DNA of 29,916 bases, from IMG/VR virus record IMGVR_UViG_3300024252_000057, positions 1-29,916 of that record; one strand, given 5' to 3'. A program made the translations under genes and the position numbers. Positions 6,747 to 29,529 of this stretch are shown one piece after another; position 1 is the first letter of the stretch, and the number at the start of each line of letters is the position of its first letter. The notes under the pieces are model-generated. The model was not told the DNA's origin. It was given only the letters and a program-made list of their open reading frames with translations, and did not search any database. This stretch comes from a virus.

Positions 6747-7095
6747 CCGGCTTCCCCGGTTTAAACCAGCGCCAGCCAAGGCCGGAAAGCACAAAGCACG
6801 CGTGACCCGTGTTGGTATCCATGACGGTCAGTGACCAGTTGCTGTTTGAAGCATAGGAAAGCTGCGCCAAAAGCTTGGTTCCCTCACCGGCAAACCCGGC
6901 CCCGACAACCTTTTCGCCAAACTTGGCGACGTGGGCAGTCAGCGCATCAATCGGCCCGCACTTTGTCAGGTCAAGAAGCTGAACCCCTTCAGGGGTGTCC
7001 GGCGCTGGCGGCAAGGGCTTTGTGGTGCAACCACTCAGGAGAACAAGCGCGCAAGCCATGAAAGCGGCAATGATAAGCAACGTGGCTAACCTCAA
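6733..7095 (-). CDS. Small outer-membrane-type lipoprotein in the lysis module
   Basis: A hydrophobic stretch (LATLLIIAAFMACALVLLSGC) ends in a clear lipobox LLSGC, so the protein should be lipidated on cysteine after signal peptidase II cleavage. The mature part, about 95 residues, begins TTKPLPPAPDTPEG and is soluble, with two further cysteines. I place the start at TTG 7095, which overlaps the TGA of the upstream gene as TTGA and has a G-rich site before it. A longer version from ATG 7140 would lie inside the neighbouring frame. Position between a one-TM protein and the endolysin suggests a role in the last step of lysis, like an outer-membrane spanin, but it is longer than Rz1-type proteins and not Pro-rich throughout, so this is an inference. 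Confidence 0.7.
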   Translation of the reverse strand: MRLATLLIIAAFMACALVLLSGCTTKPLPPAPDTPEGVQLLDLTKCGPIDALTAHVAKFGEKVVGAGFAGEGTKLLAQLSYASNSNWSLTVMDTNTGHACFVLSGLGWRWFKPGKPDEET

Positions 7096-7409
7096 TGGAA
7101 CCCCCCGCCACCCCCTGAAATCGGGATGTTGGCTATCCAAGATTTAATACCAAGGATCAGGACAGTAAGAACACCGGCAGCAACCGCGCCAACAAAGCCG
7201 CGTGTCAGCCACGTCGCAATTGCGGTTGTCGTTGCCTTGTGTTGCCGTCCCCATGAAAAGAATCGCTGAAGGTTTTTCACGTCTTGGGGATCGTTGATAT
7301 TCCACCCCATAATCCTCCAGTGGTCAGCGAGAACCACATTGGCCCCCTCTTTACCGGCTTCCCGCGCAATCAACTTTAGTTGATCGTCTGTTAAAGAATG
7401 ATCAGTCAT
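7092..7409 (-). CDS. One-TM phage membrane protein (DUF6127-like), holin candidate
   Basis: The 105-residue protein has a helical N-terminal half (LTDDQLKLIAREAGKEGANV, then INDPQDVKNLQRFFSW) and one transmembrane helix at about 70-91 (GFVGAVAAGVLTVLILGI). It ends in a glycine run and FH. The order 'acidic helix, IN/DxxD...LQ.dF.w.r, basic stretch, TM' is the layout I know from DUF6127-type small phage proteins, but I cannot verify the family here. The start (ATG 7409) overlaps the upstream stop as ATGA, and its own stop overlaps the lipoprotein start. Next to a lipoprotein and an endolysin it is the best holin-type candidate of this module, with cytoplasmic N-terminus inferred. Confidence 0.65.
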   Translation of the reverse strand: MTDHSLTDDQLKLIAREAGKEGANVVLADHWRIMGWNINDPQDVKNLQRFFSWGRQHKATTTAIATWLTRGFVGAVAAGVLTVLILGIKSWIANIPISGGGGGFH

Positions 7410-7861
7410 TGATTAGCACCTTGCCGTTGGATCACCTTAGTTTTAACAGCTTCAAACACTTGCCTTGCGTTTATTGTCTGCCGCCACTTCGGGCCGTGTC
7501 GTTCAAGGCGCTTCAGGTAGGGTTCGGCCTTTTCGTAATCACCCGTCCGCAAATGCTGCATGGCTAGAAACCAGTTAATTTGAGCCGAATTCGGATCAAC
7601 ACGTGCGGAACGCTCCAAGTAATGTATCACAACTTGTGGCGGAAGGAAATCAGCCATACCAAATACAGTTGCCGTCACGCCGCCGCTATAGTAACTGGCT
7701 TGATAATAAGCCGTTGCTTCTACTACGGCCAGAAATGCTTTTCCGGGTTGGTTGCTTGCGGAATAGATGTCGGAATCCCGAAAGCGCAGTTCAGACAGGG
7801 CGACGGAAACCGCGTACCACACGCCGACGCCGACAAGGATCAGCTTGAACGCGCTCGACAC
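7406..7861 (-). CDS. TPR-containing C-terminal half of an O-antigen polymerase/ligase (separate ORF)
   Basis: From GTG 7861 the protein of about 151 residues begins with one transmembrane helix (AFKLILVGVGVWYAVSVAL). An extended segment follows, then a TPR-like helix pair (HYLERSARVDPNSAQINWF and LRTGDYEKAEPYLKRL). TM plus TPR is what follows the last membrane segments in Wzy_C/PglL/WaaL-type enzymes, so this looks like the missing C-terminal half of the gene just upstream. The two frames overlap by 22 bases, and a -1 shift would join them; a GGGG run lies exactly in the overlap (7867-7870). The frame stays open upstream of the chosen start, but those residues mirror the neighbouring gene. 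The true start is therefore uncertain. Confidence 0.62.
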   Translation of the reverse strand: MSSAFKLILVGVGVWYAVSVALSELRFRDSDIYSASNQPGKAFLAVVEATAYYQASYYSGGVTATVFGMADFLPPQVVIHYLERSARVDPNSAQINWFLAMQHLRTGDYEKAEPYLKRLERHGPKWRQTINARQVFEAVKTKVIQRQGANQ

Positions 7862-8964
7862 AGGAACCCCGCTTGAATGCCGAATAGAAGGGCCGGGAAC
7901 GGGGTATACAGGGGGAAGGCGACAAGCCCCATGCCCAATATTGTCACTATCCCGCACCATGCCGCCCAATCCTCTTCACTTCGTAAGGGTCGCCGCATAA
8001 TAATAACAACAAGCATGACAAATACCGCAAGACCAATCAACCCTGTTTCGAAGCCAACCGTCAACACGTCATTATGTGCCGTGCGCGGGCGCTTGCCGAA
8101 AGTATATACGCTTGCCGGTGATTCCATCACCGCATCATTGATCAAAGGATAGCCCGTCCAGTAGCTTCCGACGCCGCGCCCGGTCAAGTCCAGCGTCGCC
8201 GCCGTGTTGACAAACAGCGCCACGCGATTCTGAAAATGTTGGTGGTTAAGCCAGCGCTCGCCCAACTTGTCTACCCCCAACGAATAAATGTAGCCCGTGG
8301 CGGACAGCCCGGCTACCGCGCAGATAAACAAAGCTGTCCGCCAACGCCGCTTCTTCGCCACCACGGCGACAAGCGCCACTAGGCCACCCACCATCGCCGC
8401 CTTTGACAAAAGCCCCATGGCGAGTACGGGGAATACGCGCCACTTCCAGAGAACAAGCCCCGGAACGCTGATTGCCATGGCGGCGGCGGCAAGCCGGTTG
8501 CGATTGATGAACAATCCGGCGTATTCAGTGGTCACAAGGGTCTTTGTGTCGAAAAGGACTGTCAGAAAGTCTATCCCGACTAGACCCCCCAAAATAATAA
8601 CCCCGTTAAGCGCCATACCGACAAGGCATAGGGCGATACCCATGCGGAAATCAGGGCGCTTCAGCATGGAGCCGCAAATGAAGGCCAAGCCAACGAGCGT
8701 GAACAACCACACCCGGTCAAGAGCCATGGGCAGGGAAAGCGCCCAAAAGCACGTCAGGGCAGACCAAGCCAGAAAAAGCGCGCCCAGCGCCGACGCGGCA
8801 TGGCTGATCGTTGGGTATACTGAGCCCTTATTATAGAAGGCGATCATCGGCAAGACCGCCGACATCACTAACCACTTCGGCGTTGTTGACGAAGCCAGAA
8901 AGCCGGTCCAGTAGACCAGCGGCATAATTCCCATTAAGGCAATCAGGCAGCGGGCAGGATTCAT
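7840..8964 (-). CDS. O-antigen polymerase/ligase-like membrane protein (Wzy_C superfamily)
   Basis: The 374-residue protein is almost entirely hydrophobic, with roughly ten predicted membrane helices. It carries the family landmarks GLFINRNRLA at 150-159, DLTGRGVGSYW at 259-269 and RTAHNDVLTVGFETGLIGL at 294-312; the conserved His297 and Glu306 lie in the last block. These mark the Wzy/WaaL/PglL superfamily of enzymes that polymerise or transfer lipid-linked O-antigen in the periplasm. Known phages such as Pseudomonas phage D3 carry their own Wzy to change host O-antigen and block superinfection, so a seroconversion role is likely. The start overlaps the preceding stop as ATGA. The C-terminus is shorter than in full ligases; the next ORF appears to supply the missing TPR part. 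Confidence 0.88.
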   Translation of the reverse strand: MNPARCLIALMGIMPLVYWTGFLASSTTPKWLVMSAVLPMIAFYNKGSVYPTISHAASALGALFLAWSALTCFWALSLPMALDRVWLFTLVGLAFICGSMLKRPDFRMGIALCLVGMALNGVIILGGLVGIDFLTVLFDTKTLVTTEYAGLFINRNRLAAAAMAISVPGLVLWKWRVFPVLAMGLLSKAAMVGGLVALVAVVAKKRRWRTALFICAVAGLSATGYIYSLGVDKLGERWLNHQHFQNRVALFVNTAATLDLTGRGVGSYWTGYPLINDAVMESPASVYTFGKRPRTAHNDVLTVGFETGLIGLAVFVMLVVIIMRRPLRSEEDWAAWCGIVTILGMGLVAFPLYTPFPALLFGIQAGFLCRARSS

Positions 8965-9329
8965 ACCGGTGGATCAAGCCTGTCGGCAATCACTTTCAAA
9001 TCTTGGTAGGCTTGCCGGGCTTCGGGACTGAAATCGGCGGGTGTCATTCCGGTGTTATCCAGCACCCATTGAACGAGTCTGACCACAACGAGTGTAACAT
9101 CCTTACCCGCGCCCCTCAACGCGTCAGTGTCCGCCGCGTTCTGAACAACGCCGGAAGCTTCGTATTCAACTTGCCAAGCGTCGGCCTGTTCCTGCGTCGG
9201 GTAGTCGCCAAGAACTTCCGGCCATTCAGTCAGTTCCATCAACCCCGTTTCTGGGTTCTGGTGACAGCGAATGCCCGGCGCGTAATTATGTTTCCAGCCA
9301 ACGGCGTGGGGATCACAATTTATATTCAC
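8961..9329 (-). CDS. Small protein coupled to the fibre-like gene, unknown function (122 aa)
   Basis: The N-terminal half (CDPHAVGWKHN, TEWPEVLGDYPTQEQADAW) has the look of small tail-fibre-associated proteins: a Pro/Trp-rich start and an acidic PTQEQADAW helix. The C-terminal half is helical (VTLVVVRLVQWVLDN, ARQAYQDLKVIADRL). No transmembrane segment or signal peptide is seen. It starts in an ATGA overlap with the stop of the fibre-like gene and ends in an ATGA overlap with the start of the O-antigen gene, so all three are translationally coupled. A chaperone or cap for the fibre is possible but unproven; I recognise no family. Confidence 0.65.
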   Translation of the reverse strand: MNINCDPHAVGWKHNYAPGIRCHQNPETGLMELTEWPEVLGDYPTQEQADAWQVEYEASGVVQNAADTDALRGAGKDVTLVVVRLVQWVLDNTGMTPADFSPEARQAYQDLKVIADRLDPPV

Positions 9330-10342
9330 GGCTCATACTCCAAAATTGTAATTGATGATGCCGCCACACCGCCGAAAATTCGGCTTGCTGTATTGCCGTT
9401 AATGCAGCTTGTCCCGGCTCCCTCTGCGCCAAAGCGGACGCGGAAGGTCGTTGAACTCGTTGTGCCCGCCGTCATTGTATGTGTCAGAGAGATTGCCAAA
9501 CCGCCAGTTGCGCCGGAAATAGTGTCGGCTGTCGCGGCAAGTGCGGCCGCCGTTGCGTCTTGGAAAAGCGCCAACGTACAACTACGATTTGCCGTATCAT
9601 GAGAACCGAAAAACTCAACCATAATGACGAGGATATTGGTCGCGCTCGTTGGCGTAATCGCCAACGTCATGTATTCATCACCTTCGGTGATTTGTGGAAT
9701 GGTGTCATCAAACGGTGTTTGAGTTGTCCCCGTCGCGTAGGCGCTTACTTGGGTTTTTACAGCCTGTTTCAGCTTGCCCGTCGCGTCGACCGAACGAGTC
9801 AGTTCGTACCAATCCGTCCCGCGTCGCTGAAGGATGATTGATTTGTCTGTATCGTCAAGGCTGTAATCGGCATCGCCTTGAAGATGAATCTGACCTGCGC
9901 CCGTCGCCGCATCCTTGACTACCACCGTTCTGTCGGTGTGGGCGGCGCGGAGAATCAGGATCGTTTCGTCCGCCACGCTCGTTGTCAGGACATTGGCTAG
10001 GTCGTCGCTTGCCGCATCGGCATTGGTATCAACTGTGTGGTGCGACTTGTCAGGGGTTATCGCGCCACCCGCTGAAATCGTCAGTTCGTCGGACTCCAGA
10101 GCAATGGAGCCACCAATGACGTTCTGAACGGCATCGTCACAGTTGATGGATTTTGCAAAGGCCGAAAGAACGGCGGCATTGACCGCTTCAGTGAAGGTCT
10201 TCAGAACGTCGGTTAATTTCGTAAGAATACCAGCCCAGCCCACAAGGTTTGCCGTGACTTGCGAGCCGTCGTCGGCGGGCGGCGACGCGTTATAGCCACT
10301 TGACGATTGTGTGGTGTACGGGTTTACGCTAGGACCGGTCAT
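9326..10342 (-). CDS. Putative tail fibre / receptor-binding protein
   Basis: The 338-residue protein has a Ser/Pro-rich, low-complexity N-terminus (PYTTQSSSGYN), a short helical stretch (LTDVLKTFTEAVNAAVLSAF) and then long beta-rich, Thr/Ala/Asp-rich sequence with Ser/Thr-Ala-Thr repeats. The C-terminal 150 residues (from ATGTTQTPFDDTIPQITEGD, then LAITPTSATNILVI, ending FRVRFGAEG...SITILEYEP) resemble beta-sandwich receptor-binding tips found at the ends of phage fibres. It lies right after the internal virion genes, where podoviruses usually place fibres. Its direct coupling to an O-antigen-modifying gene fits a role in recognising surface polysaccharide. No enzymatic tailspike motif is visible. 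Assignment is by composition and position, not by a named family. Confidence 0.6.
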   Translation of the reverse strand: MTGPSVNPYTTQSSSGYNASPPADDGSQVTANLVGWAGILTKLTDVLKTFTEAVNAAVLSAFAKSINCDDAVQNVIGGSIALESDELTISAGGAITPDKSHHTVDTNADAASDDLANVLTTSVADETILILRAAHTDRTVVVKDAATGAGQIHLQGDADYSLDDTDKSIILQRRGTDWYELTRSVDATGKLKQAVKTQVSAYATGTTQTPFDDTIPQITEGDEYMTLAITPTSATNILVIMVEFFGSHDTANRSCTLALFQDATAAALAATADTISGATGGLAISLTHTMTAGTTSSTTFRVRFGAEGAGTSCINGNTASRIFGGVAASSITILEYEP

Positions 10343-12476: not shown

Positions 12477-14213
12477 TTACAAGTTGAATTCATCCATTTT
12501 GCTGACAAGCTTCTTCATGAAGTCGTGTGAGAACCCATGACCCTTGCCCAACCGGTTTTCTTCTGACTTCCCACTTCGCACCTGAACCAAGGGCATTACA
12601 AAACGGGCGACATTTGCAACGCCCTCCTTCGTAATGGCCGGATCAAAGATGTTATCAGTTGGAAGGTTTACCCTGTCATCCGCGCGGAGATAATCAAGAA
12701 CAACCTCGTCGCGTCCCACCTTCGCCTTATCAGCAAGGTTTCCATACTGACCTTCAAGCTGCAACTGATTGAACAGTTGTTCGCGATACAGGTCGCGGGC
12801 GGTTGAAATCAACTCATTGCGCTGTGTGTCCGTCAAGGATTTGGATTCAATCGCGCGCTCCAACCACGCCCGCATACCCTCGCCCAATTGCCCGGACGTA
12901 GCGACAGCGCGGGCTTCACCTTCACGAACCGTGGACGGCGGGTCTAACACCTTCATGAACATGAAAATCAACGCCAAGTCGCTCATGGCGTTCTTGTTCA
13001 TGCCCGCCCGTTGAATCTTCTGCCATGCGTTGGACAACTTCACAAACTCGCCGGACGCCTTGACGAATTCCTTGCGGATACCAGCAACTTCAGTCAGCGA
13101 CGCCGCGCCAACGTTCGCCAACGCCTCTTCAGCCCGCTGAACCTGTGGTGACTTCTTGCCGTCCACATCCGGGAACATTTCCTTGGCAAGTTCGACGCCC
13201 ATTTGCAGCTGACTCAACTCACCGCGCGACTTGGGCTCCGCGCCCAAGTGCGCGCGGACTTCAGCCGGGTTGGGTTTGCGGCCAACCAAGTTGGTGAATT
13301 CGTTCTTCCATGCCAGATATTTGGAAGCCTGTTTATCGCCGGGACTGGCAATGGTGTTGTCCAGCATCTTGGCAATGGCGGCGTGTTCGGCGGTCCCCGA
13401 CTCGTACAAGCCCATATCGTCAATCAGCTTGCCAACTTCGGTCTTGGCGACATTATCCAGCCCGACAAGGCGTTCCTTGTCTTCATCGGTCAATTTGCGC
13501 CCCAGCGCCTTTTCAATGTCGGCCATCTGCGCTTCAGCTGTACCGACCGTCAAGCCCTGATCCAACGCGGCGCGCTCACCCGTCGCCGCGCCAAGCGCCG
13601 TTTGCTCTGCCGTCTGACCGGCAGCGGACGCCGCCGCCGTGTCAAGGGTTCCCCGTGTGCCACTTTCAACAGCCGCTACGTCAGCCCCTATTGTTGCGGC
13701 TCGTTGCGCTCCTGCCACTTGACCAGCCCCAACCGCTTCCAAAGCGTTCAGCTTTGCACCCGCAACAAGGGACGGCTGAGTCGTCTTACCCTCAATCGTG
13801 CCTTCCGCCGTCCCCGCCGCCGTCTGTGACGCCATGAACCGCTCAAAAGCGGCGCGCGTTTCGGGGTTGGCTGTAATAGAAAGCTGACCTGTCAGGTCCG
13901 CCATGACTTGTTGTGGTGTCTTGTTCAGCGACTTGGCAAATGTCTGCAAGGTCGTCTGGAAGGTAGGAGAACCAATAAGCTCCAGCGTGCCGGGGAGATT
14001 GATCTTTGCTTCTTCACGCAACGTACCAATCAGCTTGTCATAACGCGCCGTTGCTTCTTTTAACAAGTCAGCCTTGGCCTTATTCCCCGCGACTTTGGCG
14101 CTCAACTTATCAGCCTTGCGCGCCCGCGATACCGACTGGCTGGCAATAACGTTTTTCATTGACGCGTTGAAGCCTTCCGCCGTGCCGCCCAAGAAATTAC
14201 CGATACCAGCCAT
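12477..14213 (-). CDS. Putative internal virion protein, coiled-coil rich, 578 aa
   Basis: The protein is highly helical. The start (MAGIGNFLGGTAEGFNA) is a Gly-rich amphipathic segment common in ejection proteins, followed by a Lys/Ala-rich coiled coil (KADKLSAKVAGNKAKADLLK). The centre is rich in Ala, Thr and Gln (TAAASAAGQTAEQTALGAATG), and another helical region follows. No catalytic motif is seen. It lies between two other proteins of the same type, with only 9-13 bases between genes, and was probably co-translated and packaged with them. I cannot match it to a named family; context within a podoviral virion block gives the assignment. Confidence 0.58.
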   Translation of the reverse strand: MAGIGNFLGGTAEGFNASMKNVIASQSVSRARKADKLSAKVAGNKAKADLLKEATARYDKLIGTLREEAKINLPGTLELIGSPTFQTTLQTFAKSLNKTPQQVMADLTGQLSITANPETRAAFERFMASQTAAGTAEGTIEGKTTQPSLVAGAKLNALEAVGAGQVAGAQRAATIGADVAAVESGTRGTLDTAAASAAGQTAEQTALGAATGERAALDQGLTVGTAEAQMADIEKALGRKLTDEDKERLVGLDNVAKTEVGKLIDDMGLYESGTAEHAAIAKMLDNTIASPGDKQASKYLAWKNEFTNLVGRKPNPAEVRAHLGAEPKSRGELSQLQMGVELAKEMFPDVDGKKSPQVQRAEEALANVGAASLTEVAGIRKEFVKASGEFVKLSNAWQKIQRAGMNKNAMSDLALIFMFMKVLDPPSTVREGEARAVATSGQLGEGMRAWLERAIESKSLTDTQRNELISTARDLYREQLFNQLQLEGQYGNLADKAKVGRDEVVLDYLRADDRVNLPTDNIFDPAITKEGVANVARFVMPLVQVRSGKSEENRLGKGHGFSHDFMKKLVSKMDEFNL

Positions 14214-17793: not shown

Positions 17794-18300
17794 CTATTTC
17801 TTCGCGCGGCCTTTCGGCTTTGGAGGATCAAATTCAGCGGTTTCAATGCCGGACGCTTCGATGTCTTCCGGCGTCCATTCTGCGTCGTCGCTGCCATCAT
17901 CTTCAGGAGGCGACTCAACTTCGCCGGGTTGCTTGTCCGCGCCCAACATTTCTTCAATGTGGGCAAGACGCCCAGCCATTTCCTCGTTGGAGCGGGTCAA
18001 CGCTTCATTCGCCCCGGTCAGCGCAGCGACAATGCGCTGGTGTTCCGTCGCCATGGGAACCATGATGTCATCAAAAAGACCGTCCATCATCGCCCCTTCG
18101 ACAATGCGGACAAGATCGTCTTTCTTCATGTTGCCACTGACCTTCAGACCAACTTTTTCGCCCAAGGCAACAAGCTGAATACGCCGCAGGGATGTCACCC
18201 CAAGAACAAACTCCGGCTGCTGACCGGTTGTCCCCGCAACGTCTTCAAAGAACTGAGAAAGGAAGTGTTTGCAAACGTCGCCACTTGTCGGAATCGGCAT
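17794..18300 (-). CDS. Virion-block protein with SAP/HeH-like motif, unknown role
   Basis: The 168-residue protein has a helix-extended-helix element at about 38-70 (LRRIQLVALGEKVGLKV, then KDDLVRIVEG). This pattern (LrxxqLxxLxxxxGlxxxG...LxxxI) is typical of SAP and HeH/LEM-type nucleic-acid-binding modules. After it comes a coiled coil around 85-125, then a Glu/Asp-rich segment and a basic end (PKPKGRAKK). AGAGGGG lies six bases before ATG 18300. It follows directly after another small protein with a similar motif and precedes the adaptor. Function is unknown; it might be a head protein touching the packaged DNA. Confidence 0.65.
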   Translation of the reverse strand: MPIPTSGDVCKHFLSQFFEDVAGTTGQQPEFVLGVTSLRRIQLVALGEKVGLKVSGNMKKDDLVRIVEGAMMDGLFDDIMVPMATEHQRIVAALTGANEALTRSNEEMAGRLAHIEEMLGADKQPGEVESPPEDDGSDDAEWTPEDIEASGIETAEFDPPKPKGRAKK

Positions 18301-25129: not shown

Positions 25130-26299
25130 TTAGGTGAATCCAACGTCCGAAGCGTCGGGACCGCCCGGATCACCAAATCCGCCACCTTCAAACCCACCAC
25201 CGAAGTCTCCACCACTATCAAATGACGTTACGGCAGTTCCCCGTTTACCGCGTGCGGCAGCGGCTAAACTACTGGCTGACGGACGCGGCGGCGCGACGGC
25301 AACCGGCTTCGGCGCAGGTGCGATTTTCGGCTTGGTGGTCTTCGGTTTACGCCCAATAGTAATGCCGCTACCTGTAAACTGCGACGCCGGACCAAGCAAG
25401 CCGTGCGGTATTTGCCCATCAAAGATGTCCGTTCCCCCACCGTCGCCGCCAAACACTGTTGGGAACTTGGGCGCTTTGCGCAGAAAATTAAATGGTGGCG
25501 GGAAGCTTGCAATAAAGTTTTCACCAAGTGTCCGAAGTGGACTTTCAGTGTAACGATAATTTAGCCCCATTGCTGCCATACGATCATTGAAGGCGTTAAT
25601 TTGTTGCCGTTCAGCCAGCGCACCCGTCACCGTTCCGCTGAACGGCAACACCACATTGCTGGCTCCCCGGATAACGTCGTTGCCGAATTTCCGACTCCCC
25701 AAATAATCACCTACCTGCTTTACCCCTGTCTGGATATTCCTGTTAATGACTTCACCGAATCGGGGATCATTGGGGAAAGTCGCGCCATCTTGAAACAGGC
25801 TTTTAATGCCGCCTGACACGGTGTCAAAAATCGTACCGTCGCCCGATACAGAGCGCCCGCCAGACGTACCTGTCGGGATGGAGCCAGCGGGCCGACTAGA
25901 CGCAGTTGGGCTTTGACCAACGGATTCGTCGCCAAAACCAAAATTTATATCCCCCGGCTCACGCGGACCGCCGCCATCCCCCGAATTGTCTTGAACATCG
26001 GGAAATAAAATGCGACGCATCAAGTTATAACCATTGGGGTTGGTGGCCTTGTCAAATCCGAAGCCACCAAGGATTTGGTCAACTTGGGCGGCGCTACCTT
26101 GGATTTCAGGGTTGTCAAACGTGCCGGGCGTCAGTGTTAGATTGCGCCCGCGCGGTCCGGTGGCGAGTGCTGGCGACGAGTCAATGGTTGACACACGCCC
26201 CGCGTCGCCACCTTCCGATACCGTGCCGCCTTCGGCAGCGATAATATCAGCCAGAAGCTTTTGAAGTTCTTCGTCGGACAGGCCGTCAATCACCGCCAT
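25130..26299 (-). CDS. Gly/Pro-rich protein upstream of the packaging genes, unknown function (389 aa)
   Basis: The protein starts with a helical segment (LSDEELQKLLADIIAAEGG) and then becomes rich in Gly, Ser, Pro and Asp. A more ordered core around 195-275 (TGVKQVGDYLGSRKFGNDVI, VVLPFSGTVTGALAERQQI) is followed by low-complexity sequence with Pro/Lys/Ala runs and a Gly/Phe/Asp-rich end (GGDFGGGFEGGGFGDPGG). This composition is common in phage virion accessory or tail-tip proteins, but no family is recognised. It starts four bases after the stop of a 56-residue gene. It may be a structural component; the evidence is context only. Confidence 0.6.
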   Translation of the reverse strand: MAVIDGLSDEELQKLLADIIAAEGGTVSEGGDAGRVSTIDSSPALATGPRGRNLTLTPGTFDNPEIQGSAAQVDQILGGFGFDKATNPNGYNLMRRILFPDVQDNSGDGGGPREPGDINFGFGDESVGQSPTASSRPAGSIPTGTSGGRSVSGDGTIFDTVSGGIKSLFQDGATFPNDPRFGEVINRNIQTGVKQVGDYLGSRKFGNDVIRGASNVVLPFSGTVTGALAERQQINAFNDRMAAMGLNYRYTESPLRTLGENFIASFPPPFNFLRKAPKFPTVFGGDGGGTDIFDGQIPHGLLGPASQFTGSGITIGRKPKTTKPKIAPAPKPVAVAPPRPSASSLAAAARGKRGTAVTSFDSGGDFGGGFEGGGFGDPGGPDASDVGFT

Positions 26300-28839: not shown

Positions 28840-29529
28840 CTAAATTGGCCCGTGAAGTTCTTCGTGATTCACCAAATGCTGACGCAACGATGAAATATAA
28901 CCCGTGATACCGTGATCCTGAACGGCGAAGATTTTATCATCAACGGGCGGGAGAGAATACTCAACCGAAACCTTCGGATGGCTGATCCACGGCGGCATGT
29001 AAGGAACAGGGTCGCGACCATGAATAAACCTGTCGAACGGCAACCCCTCCAAAGCGGCTAGTCGGCCCGGTCTGGAAGCCCCGAAAGTCACGACAAAAGC
29101 GGGCTTGAAGTACCTATAGAACATAGCCGCCAGATCAGACGCCTCCGCGCCACCCTTGGAATGACCAGCAAAACCAACCGGCATTTCATGGCGGACCGCC
29201 AGAATGTCATTATAACAAACCTTGAACAGTCCCCGTGCGCCCTTCAGATACCCCGAATGTGCCCAACCCAAATACTGGTCATACCACGGCACAGCCCGTA
29301 AATTGCGTACCCAGTCCGCCCCAACGTGCCAACCCGTCTTCGGGCCTTCAGTCCCGCGAACAATAACAACAGCCAAGCCGGAATGGGGAACGTGCAAGGA
29401 CGCCTGAACGCTTTTGTAATGCCAAGTGCTGTCCTTGCCGGTGGATAATGATCGCTCATAGTCAGATTGTATGAGTTCCGCAATTTCCAAGGCGCGGTGG
29501 GTTTTGTCGGGCGAAAGATAAGGGGTCAT
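28840..29529 (-). CDS. Class 3 lipase-like alpha/beta hydrolase
   Basis: The 229-residue protein has the features of a lipase class 3 hydrolase: the oxyanion strand VVIVRGTEG at about 55-62, HSGYLKG at 91-97, the nucleophile elbow GHSKGG with Ser124, the acid Asp173 in IHGRDPVPY and His206 in AVQDHGITGY. All three catalytic residues are in the expected order and distances. There is no signal peptide, so it acts inside the cell or is released by the neighbouring holin-like protein. It might attack host membrane lipids at lysis or inactivate a host lipid or acyl group. The start at ATG 29529 has no clear Shine-Dalgarno site and lies downstream of a small hairpin. Confidence 0.83.
   Translation of the reverse strand: MTPYLSPDKTHRALEIAELIQSDYERSLSTGKDSTWHYKSVQASLHVPHSGLAVVIVRGTEGPKTGWHVGADWVRNLRAVPWYDQYLGWAHSGYLKGARGLFKVCYNDILAVRHEMPVGFAGHSKGGAEASDLAAMFYRYFKPAFVVTFGASRPGRLAALEGLPFDRFIHGRDPVPYMPPWISHPKVSVEYSLPPVDDKIFAVQDHGITGYISSLRQHLVNHEELHGPI

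Follow-up and report, generated by a model that had tools for sequence, protein, structure and literature searches.

A conserved pair of overlapping late phage genes that probably encodes a two-subunit Wzy_C and TM-TPR enzyme

An uncultivated phage lineage carries, between its tail-fibre and lysis genes, a gene for a Wzy_C-type membrane enzyme (ORF1) and, in a second frame, a separate gene (ORF2) for a TM helix with a TPR-like tail that apparently starts inside the enzyme gene. Both frames are coding and under selection, their layout is kept in three phages, and no slippery site is common to the three. We conclude that both are probably genuine late genes, which overlap and together specify a two-subunit enzyme, Wzy_C plus TM-TPR. 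The product of the first would be an inverting glycosyltransferase of the Wzy_C type, acting as O-antigen polymerase or ligase. The second would supply a separate partner, one TM helix with a TPR-like tail; bacterial relatives have this part at the C-terminus of one chain. We infer that translation of ORF2 probably starts at an ATG at position 7960, about 120 nt inside ORF1 and behind a purine-rich Shine-Dalgarno (SD)-like site, and that in the phage studied here a GTG at 7861 may also be usable, for which a G4 run would act as ribosome-binding site. In the membrane, the products of ORF1 and ORF2 would come together and, as a catalytically active enzyme, act on host surface polysaccharide, either in the late phase of infection or in lysogens, should the phage be temperate. 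This might change the receptor, exclude rivals or avoid binding to debris. If true, the arrangement would tie O-antigen remodelling to late gene expression, provide a natural two-subunit form of an architecture that is normally a single chain, and be a clear example of overlapping coding kept across a large divergence.

The stretch of DNA that was analysed (29,916 nt, hereafter the window) is a 29.9-kb virus record from IMG/VR. Profile matches identify a terminase, a portal-like protein, a major head protein and an SU10-type adaptor. The order continues, on the minus strand, with a tail-fibre-like protein (9326..10342), a 122-aa protein (8961..9329), ORF1 (7840..8964), ORF2 and a small TM protein (7092..7409) that is the first gene of a presumed lysis cassette; beyond it lie a Rz1-like lipoprotein, an M15-type endolysin and then replication genes. 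This late-operon position suggests expression late in infection. The ORF1/ORF2 pair is flanked on both sides by 4-nt ATGA junctions, with the 122-aa protein upstream and the small TM protein downstream, and these are also in the -1 register. Other overlaps in the window, of 34, 40, 49 and 22 nt, have a register identical to that of ORF1/ORF2, and -1 is the commonest register among overlapping same-strand neighbours, accounting for most of them. The -1 shift between the two frames, which a sequence-only reading of this DNA had singled out, is therefore confirmed as a relation but is an ordinary register for overlaps in this genome.

Several other features of the genome stand apart from this locus. 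The C-terminal half of the tail-fibre-like protein is similar to the C-terminal domain of Pgp3 (PF05475, E 2.3e-5, slightly under the cut-off), and this Pgp3-like half recurs at 42-59% identity in more than 25 viral contigs that are otherwise unrelated. An ORF with a class 3 lipase domain (28840..29529, minus strand; PF01764, E 8.6e-8), unusual in a phage, lies near the contig end. With the terminase as query, near-identical contigs of the same species (L002-L004) were found in other metagenomes; all stop short of the ORF1/ORF2 locus. One of them, L003, is about 99% identical to the window across 14-25 kb, but identity falls to 83-88% at window positions 12628-13547 and 25793-26251, and the gene at 12477-14213 has a homologue there with only 68% identity, a divergence that points to mosaic exchange in the tail region.

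ORF1 encodes a protein of 374 aa in the O-antigen ligase/polymerase superfamily that matches PF04932 with an E value of 8.5e-7. Its score of 29.3 bits is slightly under the Pfam gathering score of 31.7; the homologous Wzy proteins of two related phages, L104 and L105, score 36.0 and 34.7 bits and are over it. The protein has eight hydrophobic segments and contains the motifs by which it had first been recognised (NRNRLA, GRGVGSYW and AHNDV...E). Its HX10G motif, H297-X10-G308, is conserved in L104 and L105, and a loop arginine, R247, in the motif [QK]NR[VI], is conserved across all three phages. Phage D3 Wzy-beta has an essential His of HX10G and periplasmic-loop Arg (PMC4815439). ORF1 is likely an active inverting glycosyltransferase, for which the sequence cannot tell polymerase from ligase. 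A single-sequence AlphaFold model of ORF1 had a pLDDT of 47, too low for use. The proposed PglL type found no support: the PglL-specific Pfam domains (PglL_A, Wzy_C_2) gave no match to ORF1 or ORF2 at E values up to 0.1, nor to ORF2 even at E values up to 1.

The open stretch of the second frame runs from 7975 to its stop codon at 7408-7406 (minus strand) and contains, as possible starts, ATG 7960, GTG 7957 and GTG 7861-7859. Begun at the conserved nested ATG, ORF2 (7406..7960) has 184 aa, comprising an N-terminal extension, a TM helix and a TPR-like tail, and overlaps ORF1 by 121 nt (7840..7960, -1 register). Begun at the GTG found only in the window, it has 151 aa (7406..7861) and the overlap is 22 nt (7861-7840). 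The overlap of 22 bases described earlier is accordingly correct for GTG 7861, but the earlier ATG 7960 and GTG 7957 permit one of 121 nt. We confirm the predicted make-up of ORF2, one hydrophobic N-terminal TM helix and TPR-like helices; the TPR assignment comes from the window ORF2 (E about 1e-4) and is marginal in the relatives (E 0.064 and 0.011). In a codon-bias scan of the window, the coding bias switches near 7860, close to the junction, from the frame of ORF1 to that of ORF2, which marks the two as genuinely coding. In the same scan, the extension of ORF2 from the nested ATG scores as non-coding.

The evidence that this layout is kept comes from L104 and L105, two viral contigs from one other metagenome that were found with the tail-fibre gene as query. 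Direct ORF1 or ORF2 searches of IMG/VR, INPHARED, PLSDB and GTDB representatives returned no relatives, nor did helicase- and profile-based scans of IMG/VR, and an exact DNA search of IMG/VR for the junction gave no match. The terminase query also found distant phages, which had no Wzy_C match, and INPHARED contained no further relatives of L104 and L105. The Wzy proteins of L104 and L105 are 37% and 33% identical to ORF1. In each contig, a Wzy_C homologue and an ORF2 homologue lie downstream of the fibre, and partial homologues of the 122-aa protein occupy the equivalent place. Wzy and ORF2 are in separate frames in the -1 register, with a junction as in the window; in all three phages it directly follows AG[FY]L, the motif at the end of the Wzy_C core, and the TM helix of ORF2 is recognisable in each. 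One continuous Wzy_C-TM-TPR frame is absent from all three. The sequence-only reading had called for single-protein phage homologues: the two found both have two frames and share the nested ATG. Because L104 and L105 are akin (72% identity in Wzy), the conservation argument rests on three sequences from only two independent lineages. Between L104 and L105, ORF2 has a dN of 0.21 and a dS of 1.84, and Wzy a dN of 0.20 and a dS of 1.57; ORF2, as much as Wzy, is under purifying selection. Among the four options originally raised (frameshifting, phase variation, a true split and sequencing error), a true split is favoured by the two-frame layout that these diverged relatives share.

The surroundings of the pair vary. 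Positions 7474-8400 of L105, between the fibre/122-aa region and Wzy, hold two extra ORFs, for a 192-aa membrane protein and a protein of 112 aa, that are absent from L104 and the window. The genes after ORF2 (L104 9008-9690, L105 9965-11038) have no detectable similarity to the window lysis genes, so that L104 and L105 keep fibre, Wzy and ORF2 while the genes after ORF2 differ.

The relatives also inform on how ORF2 is started. Neither L104 nor L105 has an ATG, GTG or TTG near the junction, and the next in-frame ATG is at the far end of the TM helix, at +62 (L104) and +56 (L105) from the end of the Wzy stop. Since the TM helix is kept, entry into the frame must precede it in these two phages. 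A nested ATG is found in all three, 121 nt (window, 7960), 118 nt (L104) and 124 nt (L105) before the end of the Wzy stop. It is the sole start that the three have in common and, in L105, the only standard start ahead of the TM helix. It always falls within the Ala-Trp codons GCA TGG; GCA makes up 12% of the Ala codons in the window phage, yet it is present at the nested ATG in all three. An SD-like site precedes it at a spacing of 7-11 nt, with energies of -5.8 (window), -5.4 (L104) and -5.3 (L105) kcal/mol. The conservation of this ATG is partly expected, as it is made of Wzy codons for conserved residues, and an overlap of 120 nt is long, which counts against a two-gene reading.

The overlap coincides with the most conserved 105 nt of the L104/L105 gene pair (85%). 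Between these phages, 97% of overlap residues are conserved in the Wzy frame and 65% in the ORF2 frame, where dN is 0.18 and dS 0.04; these values imply that the ORF2 extension is unselected as protein sequence. The synonymous rate of the Wzy frame in the overlap is about half the gene average (0.74 versus 1.57), and silent changes here appear to be restricted by something. A ribosome-entry region, a recoding signal or local chance could each explain their scarcity; another stretch of Wzy is likewise poor in silent changes.

In the window, the sequence AAGCGGGGT stands ahead of GTG 7861 and scores -7.2 kcal/mol; of 612 internal ATG/GTG codons, just 3.6% have a site as good. Comparable G-rich sites are found in front of terL, the primase gene and the gene that begins at 18300. 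GTG 7861 lies 5 nt downstream of the G4 run (7867..7870, minus strand), which would form the core of this site. Given the strong score, its few equals and the similar sites elsewhere, the run is most simply a ribosome-binding site. GTG 7861, at first read as the main start of ORF2, was demoted because it is missing from L104 and L105.

The alternative that survives best, although unlikely, is programmed -1 frameshifting, or recoding of another kind, close to where ORF1 ends, which would yield a Wzy_C-TM-TPR fusion either in place of the short form or in addition to it. It would fit the -1 register kept in three phages, the missing standard start near the junction of L104 and L105, and the one-chain state of bacterial relatives; the high nucleotide conservation of the overlap could equally be a recoding signal, and each phage has partial single-tRNA slip sites. 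However, these sites do not coincide between the phages, and a canonical X_XXY_YYZ heptamer is absent from the overlaps of the window, L104 and L105, for which reason canonical -1 frameshifting was rejected. At the Ala-Gly codons homologous to the G4 site, the relatives read GCT GGT and GCT GGC. The run is thus missing from both, and phase variation or tRNA slippage at G4 is ruled out as a shared cause: the run is where the sequence-only reading placed it (7870-7867), but it is unconserved as a slippery site. Furthermore, the RNA fold after the junction, computed for the window, is no better than that of shuffled sequence (z -0.86), overlapping genes of this phage usually stand in the -1 register, and an ATG with an SD-like site lies ahead in all three. 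A more specific version, in which non-canonical recoding that uses no classical heptamer joins the frames in part of the products and so sets the ratio of short Wzy_C to full-length Wzy_C-TPR enzyme in the late phase of infection, is more doubtful than recoding at large.

Less probable again is that the genes are unrelated neighbours, ORF1 being a stand-alone Wzy_C enzyme of the D3 Wzy-beta kind and ORF2 an independent TM-TPR protein that is not its partner. ORF1 does match stand-alone phage enzymes in size (386, 411 and 419 aa), and the equation of ORF2 with the bacterial tail is weak by sequence in the window and absent for L104 and L105. Nevertheless, overlap and junction are conserved in three phages, and the order of the parts matches bacterial single chains. 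Several Wzy_C proteins of bacteria carry a TM-TPR or helical tail within a single chain some 570-630 aa long. A profile built from 16 of them gives 28.9 bits for ORF1 by itself and 42.9 for ORF1 joined to ORF2, and the joined window sequence can be aligned to it from one end to the other. With shuffled tails, 0 of 200 reached 42.9 (maximum 41.1), although 3 of 200 did in a repeat with slightly different joining; L104 and L105 showed no gain in score. The architecture thus agrees with the earlier idea that the halves correspond to one WaaL/PglL-type chain, but the sequence similarity is weak. Common descent of ORF2 and the bacterial tail is likely, and the two frames may have originated by gene fission. 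No TM-TPR-type neighbour gene was found beside bacterial stand-alone Wzy genes (0 of 21 loci), a point against the favoured two-gene reading.

It is very improbable that one continuous gene is interrupted here by a fault of assembly or sequencing, by a recent frame-breaking mutation or by G4 phase variation. In favour of this, bacterial Wzy_C-TPR proteins usually form one chain, and the last eight codons of ORF1 score worst in codon usage among 24 gene ends, but such a score is expected where a second frame is under constraint. Against it, slipped-strand phase variation is not efficient at a run as short as G4, alignments of the window with its sister contigs L002 and L004 are gap-free (across 11.3 and 17.3 kb, with this locus outside the alignment), and L104 and L105 show the same two frames in different local sequence with no G run. 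As phages with only about a third of their residues in common share the layout, local error or mutation cannot be its cause, and sequencing error, phase variation and G-run slippage, all raised at the outset, are effectively excluded.

The Wzy_C enzymes known from phages are chiefly stand-alone polymerases that convert serotype. The two-gene arrangement described here is real, conserved in the three phages and unusual. Like ORF1, D3 Wzy-beta and the enzymes of PMG1, phi297, PP9W, Fyn8 and VarioGold are phage Wzy_C-type proteins of similar size with the HX10G histidine, and their genes are also placed between tail-fibre or spike genes and lysis or integrase genes. Unlike ORF1, their genes stand alone and run opposite to the late genes, as reported for D3 and VarioGold (PMC9658991), no TM-TPR gene is annotated alongside, and their pairwise similarity to ORF1 is not significant. 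The O-antigen ligase gene of Halomonas phage YPHTV-1 is Wzy_C-type and, as here, lies among late genes in the same orientation; in contrast to ORF1, its next gene is for an O-acetyltransferase, and the annotation shows no TM-TPR gene. PglL-type O-oligosaccharyltransferases are membrane enzymes of the Wzy_C superfamily with a C-terminal extension. No domain specific to this family (PMC3643930) was found in ORF1 or ORF2. The best sequence matches found are bacterial single-chain Wzy_C proteins such as L027 and L028, which combine a Wzy_C core, one TM helix and helical repeats in the same order; there, one continuous gene encodes what the phages distribute over two overlapping frames.
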